From positions 1,860,001 to 1,924,000 of the forward strand of contig NZ_CP143889.1 of the NCBI RefSeq assembly GCF_036417355.1: a stretch of DNA of 64,000 nt. Direction: 5' to 3'. The notes under the pieces are model-generated. The model saw nothing but the letters and a program-made list of their open reading frames with translations. It did not search any database and was not told the origin of the DNA. This document shows positions 1 through 26,292 of the stretch, piece after piece; position 1 is the stretch's first letter; every line of letters begins with the position of its first letter. The position numbers and the translations under genes were made by a program. This stretch comes from Akkermansia sp. RCC_12PD. GTDB lineage: Bacteria > Verrucomicrobiota > Verrucomicrobiia > Verrucomicrobiales > Akkermansiaceae.

Positions 1-3000
1 TGAATGTAACGGGAACATCTAATGGCCATGCTACTTCCCGCAGTCTTCTTCTTGCCCATTGGGCGGCAGGGAGCGGCAGAATTAATTTGCAGGGGGGGAC
101 TCTGAATTCTTTTGGTGCTACGATGTTCCTGGCCTGGGCTGGTACTGAAACCCAGTCGAAAGGAACGTTTAGTGCCACTTCCGGAACGGCCAATCTGCTG
201 GGAATGGATTTCTGGGGAGAAAGCGGCGGAGTATTTAAGGGGCAATTCCTTCTGGGTACTGCGACAACCGGGGACGCCCGTGTGAACTTCGGGACATCCG
301 GTATTACCAATTTTGCCGGTTCCTCTGTCATTCAGTTAGGGGAAGGTACGCTGGGTGCCCTGGGTAATTGGTCGCTCTCTTACAATACTGATTATACGGA
401 AGCGTTTGTCAACTTGGTTGGTTCGGTGAATGGTACCATTATTGACACGCAGGATGCCAATGACGGAACCACGGACCGTACGATTACATTCCAGAATGGA
501 CTGACCGGCAGTGGAAAACTCGTAAAAACAGGAGCCGGCACCCTCGTTCTCAATGGCACCGCCAAGGCTCCGGTTCCCGCAGACGGGGACACGGCTGCCA
601 TTCCCGGCTTCACCGGAACGGTGGAACTGCGGGAAGGCAGCCTGACCGTAAAAGATTCCAGCGTCATCGGGCAGGGAACCCTGCTCATCGGGGGAGGGCT
701 TTCTGTTGCTGTAACTTCCGAGAATGGATATTCCCTGGATGCCGGTTCTACGCTGGGCACGACCAACATTGCGGGGGGTACGGCTACGTTGGGTGCGGTC
801 CTGACACTGAACGGAGGCGTCTTGAGTTTTGATTCCCTGAGCACGGATACGGCTGCCTTGACGGTTAATTCCGTAAACGGCAATTCGGCTACGGATGTGC
901 AGGTGGCTTTGTCTTCTCTCACTACCAATACAAATTATGCCCTGCTGCATGGCACGGGGCTGGAGGACAAATCCTTCACACTTTCCGGAGCGGCGGCTGA
1001 ATTGTACAAAGGTTCGTTTGAGGTGATCGACAATACCTTGTATGTTTCCTTTACGGACAAGGAGGGCCTCCTGCGCTGGAAGAGCGGTAACTGGAGTACC
1101 TCTGAAGCGGACCTTTCCTGGGATCTTGACGGAACTCCATCCTCTTATACGGATGGTCAGACGGTTTACTTCTCCAACGGGGACGGCGTAAACAAAAATG
1201 TAACGATTGTCGGTGACGTGGCGCCGGGCAAAATCAATATTGTGGGAACGGACTTCGTCTTCACCGGGGATGGTTCCATTACCGGGGAAACGACGCTGAA
1301 CCTTCTGGACGGCGCGTCCCTGACCCTCAACAATACCAACTCCTACAGCGGAGACACGGTCCTTTATGACGGCAGCAAGCTTACTGTCGTCGGGAACGCC
1401 CTGGGCTCCAGTACGGTGTTTTTGCGGGGTAACTCCGTGTTGGAAATAACCACAGGCACCTGGAACGGATTGGGTACGCGCCTTAGCGCCGACTCAACCG
1501 GTACCTTGAAACTGTCGGGGAACGTCACCGGAACGACGACGGATGCCTTGAGCAAGGTAACTTATGAGATTGGTTCCGGTACGCGGCTGACGCTTTCGGC
1601 GGGTACGTATGGCAACACGATCACCGGTGCCGGCAGCTTGTGGTCCGCCTCCGGAACCACGGTATTGAAGGGGAAAGTTGACATTGGCGGAGAATACAGG
1701 TTGATAGGGGTGAAGAACACGGCCTCCAGCTGGACGCTGGATTCCAATGCCTCCCTGACGGCGGGCAGCTTCATCGGCCGTTATGAATTCAACGGCACGA
1801 CGACGCTTAATATTAATGCGGGCGCCGTCATGAACATTACTGGCACCTTGCAAGCGGCCCGCGACGGCAAGTCCATCATGAATATTGCCCAGGACGCCAT
1901 GGTTCTGGCCCAGACCCTGGATTTGGGCCAGAACTGGGACGGCAGCGAAAAGGGGGCCACCATTAATTTGAATGGGGGAAGTCTGATGCTGGGGGCCGGA
2001 GGAATAGTGGCGACTGGGAATTCAAATACGATCGCCTTGAACATGAACTCGGGAACGCTGGGCACAACGGCGGCGGAAGGCTGGTCCACGACCCAGAACA
2101 TGACTCTTGGCGGTAAATTGACGGTTGATACGCGTCAATATGATGCGGGGACCAAATCGTATAACGACCAGCCCGGTACCACCATTACGCTTGGCGGTGT
2201 TCTCTCGGGAACAGGCAGCCTTGTCAAAAACGGCTCCGGCACCCTGACCCTGTCCGCACAGAATACCTACACGGGCCAGACCACGGTGAACGGCGGCACG
2301 CTGGCGTTCACCAACACGAACGCCATGACGCTGGGCAGCATCTCCATGGGCGCGGGCGCCAGGATGACCACGGCCTCCGCCCTGACGCTGAACAGCGGCG
2401 CTACGCTGATCTTTGACATGACTGGAGTCGTAGCAAACGGCCCGATCATCAATATCCAGGCAGGGGCCCTGGCTCTGACGGATGCCAACTGCACGCTGAC
2501 CATCAACAACTATGGTGAACTGGAAGCATCCGACTACGTCCTGGCCCAGTGGGCTGCGGCGGGCAGCCTGACCACGGATTCCTTCACCTGGACGCCGGAC
2601 ATCACCCGGGAAGGCTTTGAATACTCCGTCGTGGTGGAAAACAACCAGCTCGTGCTGAAAGTCGTGGACGTCAGCGGAGACAATGGTTTTGTCTGGGACG
2701 GCGGAACGGACCGCAAGTGGATCAACACCAGCATCGGCGGCTGGACTACGAAGCTGACGGGAGTGAATACGCTGGACGACCAGGAAATCTATTTTTCCGC
2801 TGCGGAAGCGGGTGAAGTGAGGGTCTCCGGTACCGTGACTCCCAAGAGCGTCGTCTTCAACGGCGGCTCTTACAAGCTGATCAGTGATCCTGACAACGCG
2901 GGTTATATTGCGGACTCCGTTGCCCCCACTACGCTTACCGTGAACGGCTCGGCCAACGTCACCCTGAACCTGGCGAATACCTACACCGGCGGCACAGTGC

Positions 3001-6000
3001 TCAACGGCGGCATTCTTACCATTGGCGCGGACGGCGCGCTGGGCACGGTGGGGGACATCACGTTCAACGGCGGTACCCTGGCTTATGCGGACTCCACAGC
3101 CGGTAAGGACGTGACAGAGTACGACATTTCCAGCCGCGTCAAGGTCGGAGACGGAGGCGCCCTGAACGTTTCCGTGCTGGGTGCGGATGACACCGTCACC
3201 TGGGCGGGACTGACGGCTGGCGTCATGAACACAACGGCCACCACTTTGACCAAGACGGGCGCCGGTACGCTGGCCCTGGCCTATGCGGATGCATCCCTGG
3301 CCCATCTGACGGTACAGAAAGGTACGCTTGCGTTCACATCCGGAGCCACACTGGGCGTCAATCCCAATAATGCCACCATCATCCAAGTGGATGAAGGAGC
3401 CACGCTGGCCCTGGCCGGGGGAACGGTCAACCTGCACGCCCAGCTCAATGGTGCGGGCACCATCATGATAGGAACGGCGGACAGCGCCGGGCAGGGGAGC
3501 GTCACCAATACCGGCAATAGCAACTTCACTGGCAGGCTGGAATTGCTTGGCAACGGTGAAAACATGAATACCAACGACAACCGTGTGGCATTCAATACCG
3601 GCGGGTCCCTCGGGGCGGGTACGGTTTTCATTGACGGCAAGGGCTTTCATTTCTCAGCGGGAACAACGGCGGCCAACATGGAAATCGGCGCACAGCACGG
3701 TACAGTGCAGGATGGTTCCTCAGGGGGCAACTACACCTTCTCGGGGGCTATTTCCGGTTCCGGATCGTGGGGGCTGGCCCAGAACGTCAAGCTTACCAAC
3801 ATTCTTATTGGTCCGCTCAAGGACTTCCGGGGAACCCTGTCCACGAATGCCACGAATAATACCGGCGGCTACCAGAACTGGAACTTCGGCAATGGAGGTG
3901 CATGCGCGACGGGGACCGGAAACGCGATCTTCGGGGACGGCGCTGTTCTGGACGGCAATGCGGGGTCCACGGATACATCTCTGGCCGCGCGTTATACGGT
4001 CAATTACAACAATGCGGAACTGCTCCTCAACGCCACTGTGCGGGGCAACGCCAGCCTGACGCAGGCCGGAACGGGTACGTTGATTTTGGACAAGATCAAC
4101 ACTGCCGCGGGCGACCTTGGCATTACGAATGCCGCGGGTGTCGTGCAGTTGGGCACGGCCGGCCAGGCGGCCCAGTGGTCCGGGACGACGCTCTCCGGTG
4201 CGGGTACGCTGAAAATAGTCAACGGAAACCTGACTTCTGCGATGACCCGTACGGAAGGTTCCACGGCAGGTATCGTCGTGGATTCGGCGGCCGTCATTAA
4301 CCTGGGCGAAACAAACGGAGACCTGCTCACCGGCATCACCCTGGCCTCCGGCGGCAAACTGGCCGGCGTTTCCGGAGACATCACTGTTGGAGAGGGGGCC
4401 ACCGGCAGCCTGAACCTGACGCTTGGGACAGCCAACGTTGGAGAAGGAGCCGCCGGAGCGGCGATGATTGACCAGGGTAACGGTAATTTGATCATCAACG
4501 ACTCAGCACGCGTGAACCTGGACGTGGACGCGATCGTGAACACTCTTATAGCGCATAAGGGCGCAGGAACGGAAAGCTGGCTGACGCTGACGACGGGAAC
4601 GCTTCAGTGCGACGACCTGGCAAACATCCAGTTCAGTGCGATTCTGTCCAACTACGGTATCCGTGTAAAGGATACGAACGGAGGAAGCCTGGTACTGAGC
4701 GGTCAGGTCAGCGGACTGTACATGGTGGATGACACCGCTACGTCTGATCCTGATACGGTAACGCACTACGGCACGCTGGGCATGTACTCCGGAGTAGTGG
4801 TTGGTCAGAACAAGACGCTGACCGTACAGCTCGCCGGTGCCCCTGGCGCCGAAGACGGGAACGGGGCGGTCATCAACAACCTGCTTGGCGGTACGGGAAG
4901 CACGCTGAAAGTGGAAAACACGAATGCGGACGGCGGCAACGCCGTCGTCATTCTGAACAATGAACGCCTGGAAACGGGGCTGCCCGCACCGGACGACTAC
5001 GCCGGGGCGGACACGACCATGGGCGGCAACATCGTCGGAGAAAACGGAGTCACCTTCGTGAAGCAGAATACGGGCAACCTGAAGGTCAATGGTTCCTTTG
5101 TGACGGATACCTTGCGCGTTGAAGGAGGCACGCTGACGCTTGACGGCACGGGCAATGACTTTGATCATGTAGTGCTTGCGGGAACGGGTTCCGCTTCTTC
5201 CCTGGTTGTCGGCAAGAATGCCGTGATGGGTGACCTGACGGACGAGGGAGAAGGCGGAACGCTGTCTCTCGGTTCTGGTGCAACTGTAACCATTAATGGT
5301 GCAAGTTCCCTTGACAACAGCACGATTGAGGGAAATGGAGCACTCGTTCTCAATGACAAGCTCACGCTTTCCGGCACAGCCGGTCTCCGCGGCGGCAACG
5401 TGGTGGAACTGGCGAAAAACGATACGGCTTCCGGAACTCTTGACATAGGCTCCACTACGGGCAATGCCGTCTCCGGCCTTGGCGGAGAAGGGACCCTGAA
5501 GAGCAATGGCGGGGATCTTTCCGTCAACAGCGGTGATACCGGCTCCGGCCATGTCTTCAGCGGAACGCTGGAAGGAAAAGGAACGCTCTCCATCACGGGC
5601 AAGGCCGGTCAGGTCCTGAACAATGTGGTGACGGCATCCGGCAGCAATTGGGCCCTGAACAACAGTGGACGCCTGGATATCCGGATGGGCGGCACGGTAG
5701 ATGACCCGAAGGCCAACACGGCGCTCACTCTGAGCAGTCTGACGCTTGGCAGCGGTTCCACGACCAACCTCACGTTCAACACGGACTATGCCGGCCCCAT
5801 CATCAATGTAACGGGGAACATCAGCATCAGCCAGGGCGCGGACATCGTACTCAGCTCCACGGGCAAGAATGAACTCGTGCTGGGTGCGGACGGGAGCTAC
5901 ACGCTCATGCAGGGCGCGGGAGACATTGACCTCGACGGGAGCGACAAGCTCGCGATCACGCTGGACTCTTCCGCGGCATTCAAGAAATTTGAAAGCGGCG

Positions 6001-7202
6001 CGTACCTGACCATTGACGGAGGAAATCTGGTCCTGGTGGCCACGGCTTCCAAGGATAACAAATATGCCCGTGTTGCACACTCCTTTAACTCGAGGGCCGG
6101 GGCGGAACTGCTCTGGAACTTGCCCGGAGGCATTCCCGGAGACTCCCTGCTCAAGCAGGTGGACGACGCCATCGGTTCTCTGACGGCATCCAATCCGGGA
6201 GAGGCGGCACGCGCCATGGCTGCCGTGGCGGGTTCTACGGTCAACGCCCTGGGTACCGCCCAGCGCGACGCGCTGAGAGAACAAATGGGATGGATACGCA
6301 ACCGCACCAACCAGATGGGCGTCAACCCCGCCTACATCAACGAAGACCTCCCCTACTTCCACATGTGGATGGAAGGCACGGGCTCCTACGCCCAGCTGGA
6401 CACCAGGGGTGATGAAAGCGGCTACAAGCTCACCACCTGGGGGGGCACCTTCGGGGTGGACGTGGACCTCAGCGACTCCTTCACGATGGGGGCGGCCTTC
6501 ACGGCCAACTACGGCGACCTGACGGCCAGCGCGGCGGACACGGCCGACGGCCACCTGGACAGCTACTACGCCAACCTCTTCGGCCGCTACCAAAGCAAGC
6601 GCTGGGCCCACACGCTCATCCTGACGGGCGGGTGGAACGATGCCAAACTCAACCGGACGGTGGACTACGGAGCGGGCAGCTACAGGACGCAAGGCAACAC
6701 CAACGGCTGGGGAATGGGAGCGATGTATGAACTCACCTACGACATCTACCTCAACGAAAACAGGAGCAGCATCCTGCAGCCCCTCTTCAACGCCTCGGTG
6801 GTCACCACGCGCATGGACGGCTACCGTGAAACGGGAGCGGGCAACGCGGGCCTGAGCGTGGACAAGCAGGAATGGACGACGGGGACACTTGCCTTGGGGG
6901 GCCGGTGGATGGGTCTTGTAGGCAGCAACATCTTCGGGAGGGAAGCGCTGGCGGAACTGCGTATCAACGCGGCCCAGGACCTGGGAGACGACCGGGGAGA
7001 AACGTCGGTGGGCTTCCTTGCCAACCCCGGCTACACGCAGCAAGTGCGTGGAGCCAAGGTAGGTCGGACGGCGTTGCAGATAGGAGCGGGCCTGAGCGTG
7101 CCGGTGGGGACGCAGGGGACGGTCTTTGTCAACGGCAACGCGGACATCCGCAACGGAGCCAGCTCGGTAAACGGAAGCATCGGCTACCGCTACGACTTCT
7201 AA
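1..7202 (+). CDS. Giant autotransporter, 5' end outside window
   Basis: Type V secretion protein. The frame is open from base 3 with no stop, so the true start lies before the window; the first possible internal start is a TTG at 87, and residue numbers here count from it (2371 visible residues). The passenger is Gly/Thr/Asn/Ser-rich with recurring passenger-associated transport repeats, for example LVKTGAGTLVLNG near residue 143, GSGTLTLSAQNTYTGQTTVN near 712, NTYTGGTVLNGG near 963 and LTKTGAGTLALA near 1054. From about residue 2090 it becomes an autotransporter beta-barrel domain with alternating aromatic strands (FHMWMEGTGSYAQLD onward), ending in GSIGYRYDF with the C-terminal Phe typical of outer-membrane proteins. 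Substrate or adhesive role cannot be read from sequence. Two hairpins directly downstream suggest it ends its transcript. Confidence 0.9.
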   Translation, partial: NVTGTSNGHATSRSLLLAHWAAGSGRINLQGGTLNSFGATMFLAWAGTETQSKGTFSATSGTANLLGMDFWGESGGVFKGQFLLGTATTGDARVNFGTSGITNFAGSSVIQLGEGTLGALGNWSLSYNTDYTEAFVNLVGSVNGTIIDTQDANDGTTDRTITFQNGLTGSGKLVKTGAGTLVLNGTAKAPVPADGDTAAIPGFTGTVELREGSLTVKDSSVIGQGTLLIGGGLSVAVTSENGYSLDAGSTLGTTNIAGGTATLGAVLTLNGGVLSFDSLSTDTAALTVNSVNGNSATDVQVALSSLTTNTNYALLHGTGLEDKSFTLSGAAAELYKGSFEVIDNTLYVSFTDKEGLLRWKSGNWSTSEADLSWDLDGTPSSYTDGQTVYFSNGDGVNKNVTIVGDVAPGKINIVGTDFVFTGDGSITGETTLNLLDGASLTLNNTNSYSGDTVLYDGSKLTVVGNALGSSTVFLRGNSVLEITTGTWNGLGTRLSADSTGTLKLSGNVTGTTTDALSKVTYEIGSGTRLTLSAGTYGNTITGAGSLWSASGTTVLKGKVDIGGEYRLIGVKNTASSWTLDSNASLTAGSFIGRYEFNGTTTLNINAGAVMNITGTLQAARDGKSIMNIAQDAMVLAQTLDLGQNWDGSEKGATINLNGGSLMLGAGGIVATGNSNTIALNMNSGTLGTTAAEGWSTTQNMTLGGKLTVDTRQYDAGTKSYNDQPGTTITLGGVLSGTGSLVKNGSGTLTLSAQNTYTGQTTVNGGTLAFTNTNAMTLGSISMGAGARMTTASALTLNSGATLIFDMTGVVANGPIINIQAGALALTDANCTLTINNYGELEASDYVLAQWAAAGSLTTDSFTWTPDITREGFEYSVVVENNQLVLKVVDVSGDNGFVWDGGTDRKWINTSIGGWTTKLTGVNTLDDQEIYFSAAEAGEVRVSGTVTPKSVVFNGGSYKLISDPDNAGYIADSVAPTTLTVNGSANVTLNLANTYTGGTVLNGGILTIGADGALGTVGDITFNGGTLAYADSTAGKDVTEYDISSRVKVGDGGALNVSVLGADDTVTWAGLTAGVMNTTATTLTKTGAGTLALAYADASLAHLTVQKGTLAFTSGATLGVNPNNATIIQVDEGATLALAGGTVNLHAQLNGAGTIMIGTADSAGQGSVTNTGNSNFTGRLELLGNGENMNTNDNRVAFNTGGSLGAGTVFIDGKGFHFSAGTTAANMEIGAQHGTVQDGSSGGNYTFSGAISGSGSWGLAQNVKLTNILIGPLKDFRGTLSTNATNNTGGYQNWNFGNGGACATGTGNAIFGDGAVLDGNAGSTDTSLAARYTVNYNNAELLLNATVRGNASLTQAGTGTLILDKINTAAGDLGITNAAGVVQLGTAGQAAQWSGTTLSGAGTLKIVNGNLTSAMTRTEGSTAGIVVDSAAVINLGETNGDLLTGITLASGGKLAGVSGDITVGEGATGSLNLTLGTANVGEGAAGAAMIDQGNGNLIINDSARVNLDVDAIVNTLIAHKGAGTESWLTLTTGTLQCDDLANIQFSAILSNYGIRVKDTNGGSLVLSGQVSGLYMVDDTATSDPDTVTHYGTLGMYSGVVVGQNKTLTVQLAGAPGAEDGNGAVINNLLGGTGSTLKVENTNADGGNAVVILNNERLETGLPAPDDYAGADTTMGGNIVGENGVTFVKQNTGNLKVNGSFVTDTLRVEGGTLTLDGTGNDFDHVVLAGTGSASSLVVGKNAVMGDLTDEGEGGTLSLGSGATVTINGASSLDNSTIEGNGALVLNDKLTLSGTAGLRGGNVVELAKNDTASGTLDIGSTTGNAVSGLGGEGTLKSNGGDLSVNSGDTGSGHVFSGTLEGKGTLSITGKAGQVLNNVVTASGSNWALNNSGRLDIRMGGTVDDPKANTALTLSSLTLGSGSTTNLTFNTDYAGPIINVTGNISISQGADIVLSSTGKNELVLGADGSYTLMQGAGDIDLDGSDKLAITLDSSAAFKKFESGAYLTIDGGNLVLVATASKDNKYARVAHSFNSRAGAELLWNLPGGIPGDSLLKQVDDAIGSLTASNPGEAARAMAAVAGSTVNALGTAQRDALREQMGWIRNRTNQMGVNPAYINEDLPYFHMWMEGTGSYAQLDTRGDESGYKLTTWGGTFGVDVDLSDSFTMGAAFTANYGDLTASAADTADGHLDSYYANLFGRYQSKRWAHTLILTGGWNDAKLNRTVDYGAGSYRTQGNTNGWGMGAMYELTYDIYLNENRSSILQPLFNASVVTTRMDGYRETGAGNAGLSVDKQEWTTGTLALGGRWMGLVGSNIFGREALAELRINAAQDLGDDRGETSVGFLANPGYTQQVRGAKVGRTALQIGAGLSVPVGTQGTVFVNGNADIRNGASSVNGSIGYRYDF

Positions 7203-16676: not shown

Positions 16677-17330
16677 ATGGAAGATATTAAATTAGAGTTA
16701 TTTACTAAATTTTTCACTCTTGAGAAAGGGGAATCAAATACTCTGGAACTGTTTGATTTTTGTACCCCATTCCTCAACCAGAAAAATGTATATGCACAAC
16801 CATGGCTGCCTATCGCTGAAATGGGATTTTCTCACAGGGACAACAGCTATCTACGGTAAATAACACCCGCGCACATAAAGAAGGGAGAAGAAACTTTTGA
16901 GTATTACCCTTCCAAACGTGAAGAAATAGTAATGTACGCATTACGCTACCTGGCAGCGCAACAACAAATAGAATGCCAAGTAGAGAAGGATGAGGAACTC
17001 GTCACAATCGCCTTCACGCTACATCAACTCAGAAACGAGTTAAAAAGAATAGGGCATGGCTATAATTGGCGTGAAATTTCTGAAGCGATTGAAATCTTAT
17101 CGAAGGCATCTCTTTCCGTCGGCTTTGACGTAGGTAAAAGACAGTTTGAATGGACCGGAACATATCTCTCAAACGTAAGAAGCATGAATAAGGCAGGTGG
17201 AAAAGTAACTGGTGAATCATGCCGGATAGTCACGTTACATCCTATTATCAACAAGGCTATTCTGTCGGCTTCAGTCCGTCTGATTAACTACGAAAGGGAT
17301 ATGAGGTTAAAATTGCCTTTATCCAAATTG
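16677..17330 (+). pseudogene. Plasmid-type replication initiator remnant
   Basis: Two frames (16677-16859 and 16932-17360) lie in the same phase and are separated by one TAA at 16857. Reading across it gives HRDNSYLR-stop-ITPAHIKKGEETFEYYPSKREEIVMYALRYLAAQ with no other stop. The YPSKREEIVxxALRxLA motif, the predicted helices, and TLHPIINKAI followed by YERDMRLKLPLSKLI resemble winged-helix replication initiators of plasmids. The match to that family ends near 17330, where the sequence runs into the hydrolase remnant, so the 3' end is lost. Family assignment is from memory of the motif and is moderate. Confidence 0.45.
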
Positions 17331-17331
17331 A

Positions 17332-17891
17332 TTTATTGCCGTTCCTATCGACTGGTATGAAGTCGCCAATGACAATAATGGGATTCCACCCAAAAGGGAC
17401 TTCGGTACTTCTCAAGCGTAACCGCTGAGGAGTTCAAGCAGATTGCCTGCATCATTTTTGGGGAACAGTCCCAATACAATGAGCAGGAATATCTTGCCAT
17501 TGCCTCCGTATGCCGTAACCGCTGGGGACGGGGACGCCACGGCAGCATTGACAATCGTACGCCTGTCAAGACAGTCGCCGAAAATCTTGTAAAAAAATCG
17601 TGGGACAGTATGGGAGGGCGCCAGTACACCAAGGCTATGGAAGGCACACTGAATGCGGAGGAATGCCCTAATCTGGAAAAAGCCAGGGAAACGCTTGAAA
17701 AGGTACTAGGAATGGTGGAAGCTCCCTATCCTTATGACCGTTCCGTGTCGCGCCCCGGTGACTTGGATCTGAGCAACTATGTCACGATAGGCGAACATGA
17801 CTTCTACAAGAACAAGCAATTTCGCTCCTGTGCGAAGCCCGATGGATGGGATGAGATGCCGATTTATCCGGGGAGTCCCCTCGATAAGTAA
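17332..17891 (+). pseudogene. SleB-like cell-wall hydrolase remnant
   Basis: From 17379 a frame without any ATG, GTG or TTG before the internal ATG at 17610 encodes VTAEEFKQIACIIFGEQSQ, then YLAIASVCRNRWG and a C-terminal GEHDFYKNKQF. The EQ/YLAIASVCRNR arrangement resembles the SleB/CwlJ hydrolase pattern of Glu followed by AVxxVxxNR. A second frame at 17332-17415 (VPIDWYEVANDNNGIPPKRD) reads into it and looks like the N-terminal part shifted by one base near 17410. The gene therefore lacks a start and carries a frameshift, fused at its 5' end to the Rep remnant. Confidence 0.5.
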
Positions 17892-19731: not shown

Positions 19732-22700
19732 ATGTTTGACTATTGTTCCATTCTCCGCCTTTCCTTCCTGGGCTGTGCCGTGATGTGCTCCGGCGTGCTC
19801 CAGGCTGCCGGCTTGCAGCCGTGGCTGCGGGATTTGTCCGGAATTCCACTTCCTGAATCTGGGAAGGACGGGAATGAATGGATGAAAAAATTATGGAGCC
19901 GTACGGCGGATTATGTGGCGTCTGTTCCCGAGCTGGAAGCCGCCGATGACTGCGGGGATGCCATGGTGATGCTGGCTCCGGTATTCCGGGCGTGGCCGGA
20001 TCCGGAAGCGGCGGGGGCAAGCCTGGCTAAAATTCTTTCCCTTCCCGTGGAGCAGGCGGGGCCCCTCTCTTCATGGAATGACCTGATGAAGCATGAAGAC
20101 GCCATTTTGAAGCAAATCCGCTTCCTCAGACTGAAAAAGCTGGCTGCCCGTTATGATGCGGAAGCCATCCGCCGTGCCGTCGCCCGCAACCGGGAAAAAT
20201 ATGGAGAACGGTATCCGGATGCCGACAAATTCCTGGCGCGGCTTGATGCCTGGGAAAAAAAACTGGGGCCTCTTCAGCCGTGGATTGAAAAGGCGGGACC
20301 GGACCAGGAGGATATCCTGAGGGAACTGGTGGAATTGCGCAAAAAAGCTCTGATTGACTCCCTGCCGGAGCGGGATTCCGTCAGGGAATGGGTGGCGGTG
20401 CGGCGGTTCAACCCGTCCGGCGGAAGCACCTTCAACCATGACCGTCCGGCCAACTGGCAGGGCATCAGCAGCATGCCGGGACCCGGACGCGTGTACCGTA
20501 GCAGCATCGTGAAATTCAGCGGCACGTCTTCCTCTTCCCCGGCGGGCCGCCTTTTGGAGGACGACCGCTGGATGGGGCATCTGGAACTGGATTTTTCCGG
20601 GGAACGGCTCATGTTTACGGGCAACCGCTTCGGAAAAAAGGAACAGCGGCCCTGGGACGTTTTTGAACTGGATTTGAAGACGGGCGGGAAGGAAAACCTG
20701 ACCGCCCACATGCCTGCGGATACGGACAGTTACAACTCCTGCTATTTGCCGGACGGGCGGATCATCTTCATCAACACGTCCGGCATGCAGGGGGTGCCCT
20801 GCGTATCCGGCCAGGACTATGTGGGCAATATCCATTTGTATGACCGGGAGAAAAAGACGACGCGGCGGCTCACCTTCGACCAGGACAACAACTGGTTTCC
20901 GACGATGCTCCCGGACGGCCGCGTGATGTTCCTGCGCTGGGAATACACGGAAAGCGCTCATTACTTCAGCCGCATCCTGATGCACATGAACCCGGACGGC
21001 AGCGACCAGAAGGAATACTACGGCTCCAACTCCTACTGGCCCAACAGCCTGTTCAATGCGCGGCCCCTGCCGGGCAGGCCCGGCATGTTTGCCGGCATTG
21101 TCAGCGGCCATCACGGCGTGCGGAGGCTGGGGGAACTCGTTCTCTTCAACGTGAACCGGGGACGGGCGGCTACCGCGGGTGCGGTGCAGAAAATTCCGGG
21201 CTACGGAAAGCCCGTGGAAAACGTCACCAAGGACAGGCTGGTGGATGAACTGGATACGCCCTATTTTGCGGAGCCGTTCCCGTTGAATGCGGAATCTTTC
21301 CTGGCCGTTTCCTCCCCATCCGGCAAGGGGGGAGTGACCAACGTGGTCTGGTGCGACGTGTACGATAATATCGTTCCCCTGACGGCATCCTCCTACTTCA
21401 TTTATGCCGACCCCACACCCTTGAGGCCGCGAAAAAAGCCTCCCGTGTTGCACGACCGCGTGAAGCCGGACAGCAAAACGGCCACGGTATATATTTCCGA
21501 CGTGTACCGCGGCCGGGCCATGGAGGGCGTGCCCAGAGGTGAAGCCAGGTCTTTGCGCGTATTCATGTCCGAATACAGTCCGCGAGACACGGGCAGTCAT
21601 TATGCCATGGGCATGGAAAGCAACTGGGACCTGAAGGTGCTGTACGGAACGGTGCCCGTGAATCCGGATGGGTCCGCCATTTTCACCGCCCCCGCCAACC
21701 AGCCTTTGACCCTTCAGGTGCTGGACGGGCAGGGACGCGCGCTGTCTCTGATGCGGAGCTGGTTCACCGCCATGCCGGGAGAAACTTTGAGCTGCATCGG
21801 CTGTCACGAGCAGCAGAACGCCGCGCCTCCGGCCAGGCCGGTCATGGCTTCCCGGCAGAAGCCTGCGGACATTGTCCCGTGGTATGGGCCGGCCCGCACG
21901 TTTTCCTTCGTCAATGAGGTGCAGCCAGTGCTGGACCGCCATTGCATCCGCTGTCATTCCGCAGAAAGCAAAAGCAGGGAAGGAGTTCCGGATTTCATGA
22001 CTCTGGAGGCCGTCAAGGGCGCTCCGGCGCCGGGGTCCGTGGCCTATTGGAACCTGCATCCCTACGTGCGCCGCAACGGACCGGAAGGGAACTATCTGGG
22101 GCTGGCCCCCACGGAATTTGCCGCGGATACGTCCGAACTCTACCAGTTGCTCAAAAAAGGGCATCATCATGTGGACATGCCGGAGGAAGACTGGCACCGC
22201 CTGGTGACGTGGATGGACATGAATGCTCCCTATCTGGGCGAATGGCCCGGAGAACGCAATGAAAACCTGCTGAAGCGCCGCTATGACCTGCACAGGATGT
22301 TCTCCGGAGTGGAACGGAACTACGTGACCATGAAGGATTCCCGTTTTCGCAGGGATGCCTGGGCGAACGTGTCCCATAGCGGATGCTCCGTTCCTTCGCT
22401 CCGCGGAGAAAACATACCCGTTCCGTCCCCGCGGAATGAAACGCTGGCGCTGGATTTGGGGAACGGCGTCAACATGGCGTTCCGCCGCATTCCGGCGGGA
22501 GAATTCAAGATGGGAAGCGAGCTGGAAACCTCCGCGGAAAAACCCGTTGCCAGAGTGCGGATGGAAAAGCCGTTCTGGATGGGGGAAGCTGAAGTGACCC
22601 TGGAGCAATACCGCCAATTTGACCCGGAATACCTCAACGGCTGGTACGACATGCACTACAAGGACCAGGTGAGGCCCGGTTACGACATGGACGCCAATCC

Positions 22701-23277
22701 GCGGTTCCCGGCCATCCGCGTACCGTGGACGAAGGCCATGGAATTCTGCCGCTGGCTTTCCGCAAAAACCGGTAAAAAGGTGACTCTCCCCACGGAGGCG
22801 CAGTGGGAATATGCCGCGCGGGGCGGGACGGAGACGGACTTCTTCTTCGGCGGCCGTGATTCCGATTTTTCCTCCTATGCCAATCTGGGAGACGTGACGC
22901 TGAAGGAACTGGCCGTTTCCGGCGTGGACCCCAAGCCGATCAGGAATCCCAACCGTTTCTGGGACTTCGTACCCAGGGATGAGAAATTCAATGACGGAAC
23001 GCTGCATCTGGCCCCGGTCAAAAGCTACAGGCCGAACGCCTACGGGTTGTACGACATGATCGGGAATGCCGCGGAATGGACCCGTTCGGAATACAGGCCC
23101 TATCCCTGGAATAACGGGGATGGCCGCAATGAAAGCATGGATTCCTGCGTTCCCCGCGCCGTGCGCGGCGGCTCCTGGTATGACCGCCCCAGGCGGGCCA
23201 CGTCCTCCTGGCGTTGGGGATATCCCGGCTGGCGTCCCGTGTACAACGTGGGCTTCCGTGTGATTATTGAAGACTGA
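19732..23277 (+). CDS. Secreted HZS-alpha-like, haem-binding, SUMF1-fold protein
   Basis: A 1181-residue exported protein with signal peptide (residues 1-26, ending LQAA). Residues about 270-620 form a propeller with the HZS-alpha-like stretch YVGNIHLYDREKKTTRRLTF, LPDGRVMFLRWEYTESAHY and YYGSNSYWPNS, as in many planctomycete and verrucomicrobial proteins. Two CxxCH haem motifs follow: CIGCH (Cys688) and CIRCH (Cys738). Residues about 904-1181 are a formylglycine-generating-enzyme fold (IPAGEFKMGSE, LPTEAQWEYAARGG, GNAAEWTRSEYRP, VRGGSWYDRP, NVGFRVI). The copper-binding cysteines of true FGE are absent, so sulfatase activation is unlikely. First gene of a three-gene operon; reaction unknown. 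Confidence 0.8.
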   Translation: MFDYCSILRLSFLGCAVMCSGVLQAAGLQPWLRDLSGIPLPESGKDGNEWMKKLWSRTADYVASVPELEAADDCGDAMVMLAPVFRAWPDPEAAGASLAKILSLPVEQAGPLSSWNDLMKHEDAILKQIRFLRLKKLAARYDAEAIRRAVARNREKYGERYPDADKFLARLDAWEKKLGPLQPWIEKAGPDQEDILRELVELRKKALIDSLPERDSVREWVAVRRFNPSGGSTFNHDRPANWQGISSMPGPGRVYRSSIVKFSGTSSSSPAGRLLEDDRWMGHLELDFSGERLMFTGNRFGKKEQRPWDVFELDLKTGGKENLTAHMPADTDSYNSCYLPDGRIIFINTSGMQGVPCVSGQDYVGNIHLYDREKKTTRRLTFDQDNNWFPTMLPDGRVMFLRWEYTESAHYFSRILMHMNPDGSDQKEYYGSNSYWPNSLFNARPLPGRPGMFAGIVSGHHGVRRLGELVLFNVNRGRAATAGAVQKIPGYGKPVENVTKDRLVDELDTPYFAEPFPLNAESFLAVSSPSGKGGVTNVVWCDVYDNIVPLTASSYFIYADPTPLRPRKKPPVLHDRVKPDSKTATVYISDVYRGRAMEGVPRGEARSLRVFMSEYSPRDTGSHYAMGMESNWDLKVLYGTVPVNPDGSAIFTAPANQPLTLQVLDGQGRALSLMRSWFTAMPGETLSCIGCHEQQNAAPPARPVMASRQKPADIVPWYGPARTFSFVNEVQPVLDRHCIRCHSAESKSREGVPDFMTLEAVKGAPAPGSVAYWNLHPYVRRNGPEGNYLGLAPTEFAADTSELYQLLKKGHHHVDMPEEDWHRLVTWMDMNAPYLGEWPGERNENLLKRRYDLHRMFSGVERNYVTMKDSRFRRDAWANVSHSGCSVPSLRGENIPVPSPRNETLALDLGNGVNMAFRRIPAGEFKMGSELETSAEKPVARVRMEKPFWMGEAEVTLEQYRQFDPEYLNGWYDMHYKDQVRPGYDMDANPRFPAIRVPWTKAMEFCRWLSAKTGKKVTLPTEAQWEYAARGGTETDFFFGGRDSDFSSYANLGDVTLKELAVSGVDPKPIRNPNRFWDFVPRDEKFNDGTLHLAPVKSYRPNAYGLYDMIGNAAEWTRSEYRPYPWNNGDGRNESMDSCVPRAVRGGSWYDRPRRATSSWRWGYPGWRPVYNVGFRVIIED

Positions 23278-23286
23278 TTGACTGCC

Positions 23287-25149
23287 ATGAAGATGAAACA
23301 TATGCTTCCCTCTTTTCTTGCCACAGCCTGCTGCCTGCTGGTCCTTGTCTCATGCAGGCAGGAACCGGACTCCGGGGCCGGTCCCGTGGCTCCGGTGGAT
23401 GTCAAGGTTTATGGAAAACTGGCTGCCGTTCTGGGGCATGAGAGCAAAAAGCTGGAACTGGTGGACCCCGGTTCGGGGAAAGTGGTGAAAAGCATCAGCC
23501 TGTCCGGGAAGCCCAACGGCATGGCAATTGACGGAAATATCGCCTATGTGGCGGAAGGCGGCCCCGGAGGCATGGTGGAAGTGGTCGCTCTGGACACGGG
23601 AACCGTGAAGGGTGCCTTCCCGGCAGGGCATACGCCCATGTCTCCGGTGGTGCTCAATGGTAAATTGTATGTGGCCGCCAGATTCGATTCCAAGATTGTG
23701 GAAATGGACATTTCTTCCGGAAAAGTGCTGAATTCCTGGCCTGCCTCCCGTGAACCGGTGGCCCTGGCCGTCTCCCCGGACGGAAAGAAAATATGGGCGG
23801 CCAACCATTTGCCCGCAGGCGCGGCGGACGGGGACTTCACTGCGGCGGCGCTGACCCTGGTTGAGAACGGGAAGGCGGTTCATTTCCCCCTGGCCAACGG
23901 AACGCAGGGCGTGCGGGGCATGGCCGTTAGCCCGGATGGCCGCTACCTGGCCGTGGCGCACGTGCTGAGCCGCTACCAGGTGCCGACGACGCAACTGGAC
24001 CGGGGCTGGATGAACACGAATGCCGTGACTATCATTGATACGGCGCATCCGGACAGGCCGCATCCCGTCCTGCTGGACGATCCGGACGCTGGGGCCGCCA
24101 ATCCGTGGGGCGTGCTCTTTTCCCCGGACGGAAGCCTTCTGCTTGTCACACATGCCGGCACGCATGAACTCTCCGTCATTGATTTTCTCGCATTGCTGGC
24201 GCGCATGAAGAAGGAGGACCGGTCAGGGAACCCCGTGTCCGAAAGGCTGGGATTCCTGCACGACATCCGCACCCGCGTCCGCCTGCCCTTGAACGGTCCC
24301 CGCGCCCTGGCTTCCGACGGAGAAAATGTTTATGTAACGGGATATTTCTCCGATACGCTGGCACAGGTGCCGCTCAAGACGGACGCCGTCCCCCGGAACA
24401 TTCCCTTGAACGCGGAATACCGGCCTTCCAGGGAACGGCTGGGTGAACAGTACTTCAACGACGCCTCCCATTGCTTCCAGGGGTGGCAGAGCTGCGCCAC
24501 CTGCCACCCGGACGCCCGCGTGGACGGCCTGAACTGGGACCTGCTGAACGACGGCATGGGCAATCCGAAAAACACGCGCACCATGTTCCTCTCCCACCGG
24601 ACAAGCCCCGTGATGAGCCTGGGCGTGCGTGCGTCTGCGGAAGTGGCCGTTACGGCAGGTTTTGTACACATCCAGTTCATGGAGCCGGACGGAGACCTGG
24701 CCGCATGCGTCAACGAATACCTGAAAAACATGAAAGAGGTTCCCAGCCCGTCTCTGATGGCCGGCCGTCCTTCCCGCCCGCAAACGAAGGAAACCGGGTG
24801 CGCCCAGTGCCATATGCCCGGCGTGGAGCGTGGAGCTCTTACAGAATCCGCGCGCCGGGGCAGGGAAATCTTCAAGACTGCCGGGTGTGTCCAATGCCAC
24901 CCCCATCCGTATTTCACGACCAAGGAGCTGGTGGCCACAGGAACGGCGAAAGGGCTGGATGAAGGCAGGAAAATCCTGGTCCCTTCCCTGGTGGAAGTCT
25001 GGCGCACCGGTCCCTATCTGCATGACGGCCGTGCGAAAACCATCCGGGAGGCCATCACCGTGTACAACCGGGGAGATATTCGCGGAAAAACGAGCGGTCT
25101 GAACGACAGGGATCTGGAAGACCTGGTCAACTACGTACAATCCCTTTAA
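23287..25149 (+). CDS. Multihaem c-type cytochrome lipoprotein with YVTN propeller
   Basis: About 620 residues. The ATG at 23287, 9 bp after the preceding stop, gives a lipoprotein signal peptide ending in the lipobox LVSC; an overlapping TTG at 23278 is less likely. Residues about 30-390 form a YVTN-type propeller (LVDPGSGKVVKSISLSGKPN, AVSPDGKKIWAANH). The C-terminal third has three CxxCH motifs (CATCH at about 403, CAQCH at 505, CVQCH at 534) and a KTAGCVQCHPHPYFTT to YLHDGRAKTIREA region resembling MauG/di-haem cytochrome c peroxidases. Tight coupling to the upstream haem protein suggests a periplasmic electron-transfer partner. Confidence 0.82.
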   Translation: MKMKHMLPSFLATACCLLVLVSCRQEPDSGAGPVAPVDVKVYGKLAAVLGHESKKLELVDPGSGKVVKSISLSGKPNGMAIDGNIAYVAEGGPGGMVEVVALDTGTVKGAFPAGHTPMSPVVLNGKLYVAARFDSKIVEMDISSGKVLNSWPASREPVALAVSPDGKKIWAANHLPAGAADGDFTAAALTLVENGKAVHFPLANGTQGVRGMAVSPDGRYLAVAHVLSRYQVPTTQLDRGWMNTNAVTIIDTAHPDRPHPVLLDDPDAGAANPWGVLFSPDGSLLLVTHAGTHELSVIDFLALLARMKKEDRSGNPVSERLGFLHDIRTRVRLPLNGPRALASDGENVYVTGYFSDTLAQVPLKTDAVPRNIPLNAEYRPSRERLGEQYFNDASHCFQGWQSCATCHPDARVDGLNWDLLNDGMGNPKNTRTMFLSHRTSPVMSLGVRASAEVAVTAGFVHIQFMEPDGDLAACVNEYLKNMKEVPSPSLMAGRPSRPQTKETGCAQCHMPGVERGALTESARRGREIFKTAGCVQCHPHPYFTTKELVATGTAKGLDEGRKILVPSLVEVWRTGPYLHDGRAKTIREAITVYNRGDIRGKTSGLNDRDLEDLVNYVQSL

Positions 25150-25167
25150 AGGGAAGAAAGAGAAGGT

Positions 25168-26292
25168 ATGGCTGGAAAATTACGGGAAATATCCGTATGG
25201 GATGATGGAACCGGAAAGGGGGAACGTTTCTTCTGCATGACTGCGGAACCGGGCGGAAGCTTTGAGGAAGAGTTGCGTTCCCTGATGGACAGGTACCGTC
25301 AATCGGGTGGGGACGGCGGAGATGAGTTCCTGCTGCGCTTCCATGTCAGCGATCCTGTGCGGCAGGCGGAACCGCTGCGCCTTGCCGTGGGAGGGCGCCG
25401 TTCCTATGTTTCCATCGTGGGGCAGCCCCCGGCAAATGGTTCCCGCGTGGCGCTGGAGGCATGGCATCTGGACGGCATGCTGGAAAAAAGGAAGGAGGAA
25501 ACGGAAGAAGGAACGGTGCTGGTGGCGCGGAGGAAGCATTACCGCCTGTTTCTGGCAGGCAGGCGCACGGCTGCCGTGTACGGCAGCCACGACCAGATGC
25601 AGGAGGAATTCCGCTGGCTGGACCGTGTGGCCGCCGCGCTGGGAGGAACTGTCCCGGCTCTGGTTCACCGCACCTGGATTTACTGCCGGGACATTGACAA
25701 CAACTATCGGGGGCTGGTGGAAGGCCGCAATGAGAGCTTTGACCGTTACGGACTGAGTCCGGAGAACCATTACATCGCCAGCACCGGCATTGAAGGCTGT
25801 ACGGAAACGCCGGGGCGCCTGCTGCACATGGACAGCCTGGGCATTGCCGGGCTGAAGCCGGGGCAGGTCAGGTACATGGAAGCTCCGGACTACCTTTCTC
25901 CCACGCACCTGTACCGGGTGGCTTTTGAACGCGGCGCCCGCATCGTGTACGGCGACCGCTCCCATTACTTCATCTCCGGCACGGCCAGCATTGATGCGGC
26001 GGGGAACATCGTTCATCCCGGGAATGTGAAGCGCCAGACCGTGCGCACCCTGGAAAACATGCATGCGCTGATGGAACGGAGCGGCGGAAGCCTTTCCGAC
26101 CTCAAGCAGGCCGTTGTGTATTTGCGGGACTGGGCGGACAGGGATGTGGTCGGCCGTGCGCTGATGAATTCTCCGCTGGCGCACGTGCCGCACCTGCTGT
26201 TGAAAGCACCGGTCTGCCGTCCCGGCTGGCTGGTGGAAGTAGACGGCATCGCCGTCAATGGAGCGGGAGATTCTTCTTTTGCTCCCTTGTGA
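25168..26292 (+). CDS. FkbO/Hyg5-type chorismatase-like protein (Rid fold)
   Basis: A 374-residue cytoplasmic protein, with AGAAGG 6 bases before the ATG. It resembles the chorismatase family, enzymes with a RidA/YjgF-like fold that convert chorismate to pyruvate plus a dihydroxycyclohexadienoate or hydroxybenzoate. Supporting segments are HRTWIYCRDIDNNYRGLVEG (about 167-186), HYFISGTASIDAAGNIVHPG (about 266-285), RQTVRTLENMHALM and CRPGWLVEVDGIA. Cys350 and Glu357 have the spacing of the Cys and Glu I recall as catalytic in the 3-hydroxybenzoate-forming Hyg5 type. A plain Rid-family protein is the alternative. It is 18 bp behind the cytochrome lipoprotein gene. Confidence 0.7.
   Translation: MAGKLREISVWDDGTGKGERFFCMTAEPGGSFEEELRSLMDRYRQSGGDGGDEFLLRFHVSDPVRQAEPLRLAVGGRRSYVSIVGQPPANGSRVALEAWHLDGMLEKRKEETEEGTVLVARRKHYRLFLAGRRTAAVYGSHDQMQEEFRWLDRVAAALGGTVPALVHRTWIYCRDIDNNYRGLVEGRNESFDRYGLSPENHYIASTGIEGCTETPGRLLHMDSLGIAGLKPGQVRYMEAPDYLSPTHLYRVAFERGARIVYGDRSHYFISGTASIDAAGNIVHPGNVKRQTVRTLENMHALMERSGGSLSDLKQAVVYLRDWADRDVVGRALMNSPLAHVPHLLLKAPVCRPGWLVEVDGIAVNGAGDSSFAPL

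Follow-up and report, generated by a model that had tools for sequence, protein, structure and literature searches.

One of the closest described relatives of the locus considered here is hydrazine synthase (HZS), for which the complex of Kuenenia stuttgartiensis (PDB 5c2v) served as our reference. In HZS, alpha Tyr591 is a ligand of haem alpha-I, gamma Cys165 forms a third covalent bond to haem gamma-I, and gamma Asp168 lies near the latter haem (PMC12607021, PMC12758564). The zinc ligand alpha Cys303 is not conserved across all anammox bacteria, and the beta and gamma parts are reported to be joined in one protein in Scalindua japonica (PMC12758564). In the same paper, Hagglund et al. 2025 described non-anammox pairs of alpha and beta-gamma homologues, assigned to clades I-IV, that have lost key residues, and placed Opitutus terrae in clade I; sections 7 and 8 of the paper give these relatives no function (PMC12758564). 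We analysed a stretch of 64,000 nucleotides from Akkermansia sp. RCC_12PD (contig NZ_CP143889.1, positions 1,860,001 to 1,924,000), which as a whole is called the window, and within it a three-gene operon (window positions 19732-26292, + strand) in which a pair of this kind stands beside a gene for a predicted chorismatase. Such pairs were already known from the Verrucomicrobiota, the phylum to which we take O. terrae to belong. The main text of PMC12758564 contained none of the word stems akkermansia, verrucomicrobi, chorism, shikimate and dahp, and a search of a library of open-access papers returned no description of HZS-like proteins combined with a chorismatase and nothing on a chorismatase in Akkermansia; the one paper that came up for HZS with Akkermansia appears to concern nitrogen in ruminants.

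The co-directional trio with gaps of 9 and 18 bp that an earlier note on this DNA had put forward was recovered from the list of open reading frames (ORFs) at the same coordinates, namely 19732-23277 (gene 1, HZS-alpha-like, 1181 aa), 23287-25149 (gene 2, a homologue of fused HZS beta-gamma, 620 aa, with ATG at 23287) and 25168-26292 (gene 3, a Hyg5/FkbO-type chorismatase by prediction, 374 aa). The arrangement is more than chance, as the order of the three genes recurs in the genus and the pair of genes 2 and 3 recurs well beyond it.

Gene 1 matched the HZS_alpha middle domain of Pfam (8e-25; residues 603-693, window 21538-21810, + strand) and the FGE-sulfatase family (7e-44; FGE/SUMF1-type domain at residues 919-1178, window 22486-23265, + strand). 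Together with CxxCH sites at residues 688 and 738, these matches confirmed the earlier description of an HZS-alpha-like protein with two CxxCH motifs and a SUMF1 fold. The middle domain ends in the alpha-I-type haem motif CIGCHE (688-693), a profile of gene 1 matched 5c2v_A at 9.1e-15, and the hydrophobic N-terminus resembles a signal peptide when judged by eye. The FGE domain holds GGSWYDRPRRATSSWR in place of the copper-binding cysteine pair of formylglycine-generating enzyme, and FGE activity of gene 1 was rejected on that ground. A Mala_s_1-like propeller was observed near or in relatives of gene 1: in one genome (G144) it is encoded by a gene of its own that lies between genes 1 and 2 (L049:11477-12403, -), and in another (G199; L062:10337-15172, +) it forms the C-terminus of the alpha-like protein, at the place where the window protein carries the FGE fold.

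Gene 2 matched the NCBIfam family hydrazine_BC at 2e-28, and its top two sequence matches in the PDB were 5c2v_C (1.2e-20) and 5c2v_B (2.5e-20). When a profile of 23 homologues was used, 5c2v_B was matched over profile positions 22-366 (2.8e-47) and 5c2v_C over positions 384-603 (2.5e-38), while the top match, the YVTN surface-layer propeller 1l0q (1.5e-53), covered the propeller only. The protein consists of a propeller with YVTN-type matches followed by a di-haem peroxidase-type domain, preceded by a lipobox-like LVSC near the N-terminus (by eye). Two of its CxxCH sites, at 403 and 534, belong to the di-haem peroxidase-type domain, and an extra one lies at 505. The YVTN propeller and three CxxCH sites given in the earlier note were therefore right, and its account was incomplete in having missed the homology to an HZS beta-gamma fusion. 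Both HZS-gamma CxxCH sites are conserved in all 23 aligned homologues, and gene 2 fits the two-CxxCH arrangement of CCP/MauG proteins, with CCP_MauG matched at 2.5e-7 over the first site and di-haem peroxidases among the profile matches.

Homologues of alpha, beta and gamma were all found in genes 1 and 2, which by sequence comparison together match the whole HZS subunit set. The operon shares with HZS the alpha middle domain and the two gamma CxxCH sites, and gene 2 joins beta and gamma in the way reported for S. japonica. The operon differs from HZS in that its alpha-like protein carries an FGE fold, gene 2 has one CxxCH more and a chorismatase gene adjoins; three HZS residues, alpha Tyr591 and gamma Cys165 and Asp168, are absent. 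At the Tyr591 place, counted from the CxxCH histidine because the alignment ends one residue past it, gene 1 has Asn696 four residues beyond the histidine, and the first tyrosine is residue 718; in gene 2, the profile alignment read by eye placed Ala454 at gamma Cys165 and Ala457 at gamma Asp168. Three relatives (L185, L187 and L192) do have a cysteine at the Cys165 place. All scores were below the NCBIfam cut-offs for HZS families (hydrazine_alpha 33 bits against 800, hydrazine_BC 99 against 1250, gamma 76 against 625, beta 61 against 560). As three key residues are lost, HZS activity was rejected as the default reading of genes 1 and 2. In the adjoining alpha and fused beta-gamma genes and in the loss of HZS key residues, the locus is like the clade I-IV pairs as far as these are described in PMC12758564. 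According to the same paper, clades I-III have a tryptophan at the place of gamma His144, where gene 2 has Ser444; the tryptophan that MauG and bacterial cytochrome c peroxidase have at this place is, by eye, likewise not kept in gene 2.

The third gene had been called chorismatase-like in the earlier note, and both fold and residues bore this out. Gene 3 matched the NCBIfam FkbO/Hyg5 chorismatase family (TIGR04444) at 5e-14 and 52.3 bits, and the best PDB match of a profile of 18 relatives was Hyg5 (5ag3, 4.8e-15), just ahead of the one-domain Rid protein 2dyy (5.5e-15). A structural comparison with FkbO and Hyg5, which had also been proposed, placed chains of these two proteins at all of Foldseek ranks 1-7 (7e-22 to 5e-20; 17-21% identity in the structural alignments) when the AlphaFold model of gene 3 (pLDDT 94.9) was used, with Rid proteins next and matching one domain only. 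In Hyg5, E334 is the catalytic glutamate, and a Gly/Cys signature, given for Nat-hyg5 as G164, G231 and C318, marks the 3-hydroxybenzoate type, CH-II (PMC7170507). Converted to Hyg5 numbering by the offset between the two catalytic Glu residues (Gly173, Gly240, Cys327), these residues were mapped by eye onto gene 3 as E334=E357, C327=C350, G240=G271 and G173=G207; across 126 gene 3 proteins, E357, C350 and G271 were kept in every one and G207 in 125. Gene 3 thus has the whole fold, the catalytic Glu and the Hyg5-type Gly and Cys in common with the Hyg5/FkbO chorismatases (PDB 5ag3, 4bps), and differs from them in being paired with envelope haem proteins. By predicted fold and catalytic residues it is a Hyg5-type (CH-II) chorismatase, and we consider it very likely to act on chorismate.

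Within the genus, gene 3 matches were found in 16 genomes. Fourteen of these, the window's own included, had at least 59% identity, and gene 2 adjoined gene 3 in every one; the remaining two copies (G132 and G167) are distant and stand in other contexts (L059 and L054, respectively). Gene 1 was also present in 7/7 close loci that were fetched with enough flank (window, L049, L050, L069-L071 and L240), one of which (L049) has a 309-aa gene between genes 1 and 2. HZS_alpha was found in 13 of 59 genus genomes. Among the named loci, the nearest relatives of gene 3 were those of an Akkermansiaceae metagenome-assembled genome (MAG; 90% identity) and of two Akkermansia muciniphila records (78 and 76%).

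Outside the genus, at most 266 Verrucomicrobiota genomes were covered, a number that is an upper bound. Of 82 genomes that matched gene 2 at E <= 0.001, 47 passed a cut of 100 bits; for gene 3 the cut was E <= 1e-7, which 91 of 110 passed. Gene 3 was present in 43 of the 47 genomes with a strong gene 2 and in 48 of at most 219 without one, which gives a Fisher p of about 1e-19 in a statistic that ignores relatedness. In 22 of the 47 genomes the two genes lay on the same strand within 2 kb of each other, and in 25 within 10 kb. We hold with high confidence that genes 2 and 3 are functionally linked. The usual unit outside the genus is gene 2 with gene 3. All three families lay within 6 kb in 14 of 38 loci in which gene 3 has HZS-like neighbours, including outside-genus loci with other gene orders or extra genes (L051, L055, L061, L062, L183, L184, L198 and L199). 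The conservation of the neighbourhood, which the earlier note had proposed to check, thus held in Verrucomicrobiota, and single or few loci were found in Planctomycetota, where gene 3 occurs with gene 2 (L138) or with relatives of gene 1 (L093), and in Bacteroidota, where a Dysgonomonadaceae MAG has gene 1, CcsA and gene 3 (L120). In some of these clusters the relatives of genes 1 and 2 have further enzymes beside them, an aldo/keto reductase in L051, L055 and L183 and an iron-type alcohol dehydrogenase in L200 and L209, a possible sign of a step that involves an aldehyde or alcohol.

The neighbours of gene 3 were classed over 125 distinct loci from same-strand genes no farther than 6 kb away, with HZS taking precedence over DHOR and DHOR over PSCyt. 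HZS-like neighbours were found in 38 loci, DHOR in 21 (with imelysin in 18 and a porin O/P gene in 18), PSCyt/DUF1501/PPC in 28 (PSCyt2/PSD1 in 27, DUF1501 in 20 and PPC in 28) and none of these partners in 38. Within the same limits of distance and strand, an ORF with at least two CxxCH motifs was present in 34/38 HZS, 18/21 DHOR, 0/28 PSCyt and 1/38 remaining loci. A tree of gene 3 was built by a quick search from 126 proteins (the 125 loci and the window), with SH-aLRT as its only support and a midpoint root; short-flank loci (L001-L048, L149-L178), L179-L181 and copies identical in the last 200 residues were left out. On this tree the HZS context required 9 changes, compared with a mean of 33.7 after shuffling, and starred branches force no fewer than 8 of the 9; the context was therefore gained or lost repeatedly. 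The tree has two deep clades, one of 98 and one of 28 proteins, and each holds all three contexts, the smaller with only 2 DHOR loci and 1 PSCyt locus. Two loci from Parabacteroides (L108 and L125) have two copies of gene 3 in one DHOR-type cluster.

DAHP synthase is the entry enzyme of the shikimate pathway. Its gene was found at most 6 kb from gene 3 in 9 of the 125 loci (4 HZS, 2 DHOR, 1 PSCyt and 2 other), which include one from a Myxococcales bin (L115) and one from a Lentisphaeria MAG (L074). The calls in L185 and L187 were confirmed by Pfam and the others are phmmer matches to these two; the match in L129 reached only 8e-31, the genes in L129 and L141 lie more than 3 kb from gene 3, and 4 of the 9 loci share one family code (f33). 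ResB/CcsA genes were found at the same distance or less from gene 3 in 11 of the 125 loci. As a control within the fetched loci, DAHP synthase was counted 9 times in the 1425 kb that lie no more than 6 kb from gene 3 and 0 times in the 566 kb farther away, and ResB/CcsA ORFs 17 and 0 times, a control that is weak because the outside part is small; from the two DAHP synthase copies in the 3.17 Mb genome of the window's strain, about one would be expected by chance in 1425 kb. The presence of DAHP synthase in some related clusters supports chorismate as the substrate of gene 3, and the DAHP synthase and ResB/CcsA neighbours fit a chorismate substrate and c-type haems in the partner proteins. In the genome of the window's own strain, which is one contig of 3.17 Mb, the genes for two DAHP synthases and for a ResB-CcsA fusion all lie outside the operon. 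Among the matches listed, cytochrome c assembly matches in open frames of at least 890 aa were observed in 11 of the 59 genus genomes, which are close kin and all belong to the 13 with HZS_alpha; among these 11, the ResB-CcsA fusion was confirmed in the own genome only.

Computation established the three-gene operon and its homologies, showed that HZS residues are lost while the residues and fold of a chorismatase are retained, and showed the conserved linkage of gene 2 with gene 3. Beyond this we infer an exact product, its export, the formation of a complex and a reaction, as follows. Gene 3, as a cytosolic Hyg5-type chorismatase, would cleave chorismate to yield pyruvate together with a hydroxybenzoate, which is most likely 3-hydroxybenzoate. 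Genes 1 and 2 would form an envelope complex that is homologous to HZS alpha and beta-gamma and altered in its active site. This hydroxybenzoate, or a derivative of it, would then leave the cytosol and serve as phenolic substrate or reductant at the di-haem peroxidase-type (gamma-like) centre of gene 2. We put the step in which hydroxybenzoate is substrate or reductant of the haem protein at somewhat short of an even chance. Our tentative reading of the whole, that the operon is one functional unit in which a chorismatase-made hydroxybenzoate serves an envelope haem complex, is held with slightly less confidence, since most of the paired stretches outside the genus lack gene 1.

Several observations weigh against this reading. 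The main one is the haem-free PSCyt/DUF1501/PPC context in 28 of the 125 loci, which counts against a role of gene 3 with haem partners only, and the 38 loci in which none of the partners sought was found point the same way. Outside the genus, gene 1 accompanied the pair in no more than 2 of its 22 stretches (L183 and L184), and it was present in 18 of 31 further gene 2 stretches that have no gene 3; 4 of the 47 genomes with gene 2 gave no gene 3 match, and in one of the 43 others (G198) the match covers 115 residues of a 153-aa frame and may be a one-domain Rid protein. Genes 1 and 2 therefore occur without an adjacent gene 3 in some genomes, and within the genus this was seen in the fetched stretches L238 (G473) and L239 (G167), the second of which comes from a genome that does hold gene 3 in a PSCyt cluster (L054). 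As regards the proteins themselves, the TIGR04444 score of gene 3 (52.3 bits) is far below the curated cut-off of 325 bits, and the predicted structure of gene 1 had a pLDDT of 43 and was left unused. In addition, no hydroxybenzoate exporter was found in the window operon, and the own-genome match to chorismate synthase is split into two pieces that overlap and lie in different open frames (G000:C1:2763813-2764848), which may reflect a frameshift or sequencing error and leaves a question on chorismate supply.

The strongest rival, which we regard as rather unlikely, is iron acquisition, in which iron would be bound or reduced by the hydroxybenzoate or a catechol derived from it, and reduced or handled at the cell surface by the envelope haem proteins. 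It is the strongest because this chorismatase family also occurs in clusters with DHOR and imelysin, and because imelysin-like proteins have been tied to iron uptake; such proteins, together with DUF1111 di-haem peroxidases, were proposed to act in bacterial iron uptake in PMC3143127. The window operon resembles these clusters in its di-haem peroxidase-type protein and in the chorismatase family of related clusters, and differs from them in having neither imelysin nor DHOR. The DHOR (DUF1111) loci, 21 of 125 with imelysin in 18 of them, come from Bacteroidota, a Myxococcales bin and, within the window's genus, two genomes. In G119, a genome of this genus, a second, distant copy of gene 3 has genes for imelysin, a tri-haem DHOR protein and a FecCD permease as neighbours (L060; G119:C1:2335700-2353700), and ResB and CcsA were observed a few kb from its imelysin/DHOR cluster. 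Against iron acquisition, the window operon has no siderophore or iron transport gene, the product of a Hyg5-type enzyme is a monophenol and expected to be a weak iron ligand, and genes 1 and 2 matched no ferric reductase family in general Pfam/NCBIfam scans.

A distinctly unlikely alternative is that the three genes are merely co-regulated, the hydroxybenzoate being made for a separate use in the cytosol and the operon sharing a signal such as oxygen or iron and not a pathway. The haem-free and partnerless contexts described above would agree with this, as would genes 1 and 2 without an adjacent gene 3. Against it stand an HZS association that takes 9 changes on the gene 3 tree and is present in two deep clades, and the excess of gene 3 in genomes that have gene 2 (43/47 compared with 48 of at most 219, uncorrected for relatedness). 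That the complex handles NO, hydroxylamine or another nitrogen compound as HZS does, with the aromatic compound as a side function, is very unlikely: the alpha and beta-gamma homology and the gamma CxxCH sites conserved in 23/23 gene 2 homologues speak for it, and the loss of alpha Tyr591, gamma Cys165 and gamma Asp168 speaks against it. A search for the HAO family gave no match in the own genome, nor in any of 14 control genomes, and the NrfA family match of the own genome was below the cut-off. Finally, although the C-terminal part of gene 3 matches PF01042 (5e-10) and Rid proteins such as 2dyy and RutC, the idea that it is a Rid-type damage-control deaminase is extremely improbable and was rejected on fold and residues, given the full-length two-domain FkbO/Hyg5 match, the chorismatase catalytic residues kept in 126/126 proteins and, by eye, an insertion beside P341-H342-L343 that leaves the PAR-stretch Arg of the Rid site without a counterpart.

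A scan for promoters gave 7 promoter-like sites (shuffle mean 2.2), and a scan for terminators gave 4 terminator-like sites, every one on the - strand (shuffle mean 8.5). Elsewhere in the window, a short ORF at 16932-17360 (+) has a weak match, below the cut-off, to replication initiator protein A (4.8e-4) and may be a remnant of a mobile element. A 2371-aa ORF at 87-7202 (+) has an autotransporter-type PATR repeat match and is followed by genes for DNA gyrase B and a gyrase A/topoisomerase IV A subunit.

To our knowledge, chorismatases serve secondary metabolites, pigments and quinone precursors, so that a role with envelope haem proteins would be new. Returning to the reading of the operon as one functional unit, we consider it possible, though doubtful, that it belongs to a widespread pathway, absent from the literature that we searched, in which a chorismatase and a branch of the shikimate pathway (one that in some lineages has a DAHP synthase of its own) supply hydroxybenzoate to HZS-like and other di-haem envelope enzymes, where the compound may be substrate, reductant or precursor of a prosthetic group. 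If true, such a pathway would give a function to the non-anammox relatives of hydrazine synthase. The recurrent chorismatase partner, accompanied in some clusters by DAHP synthase and cytochrome c maturation genes, points to aromatic and not nitrogen chemistry in these proteins, a lead that is testable in Akkermansia, which can be cultivated.

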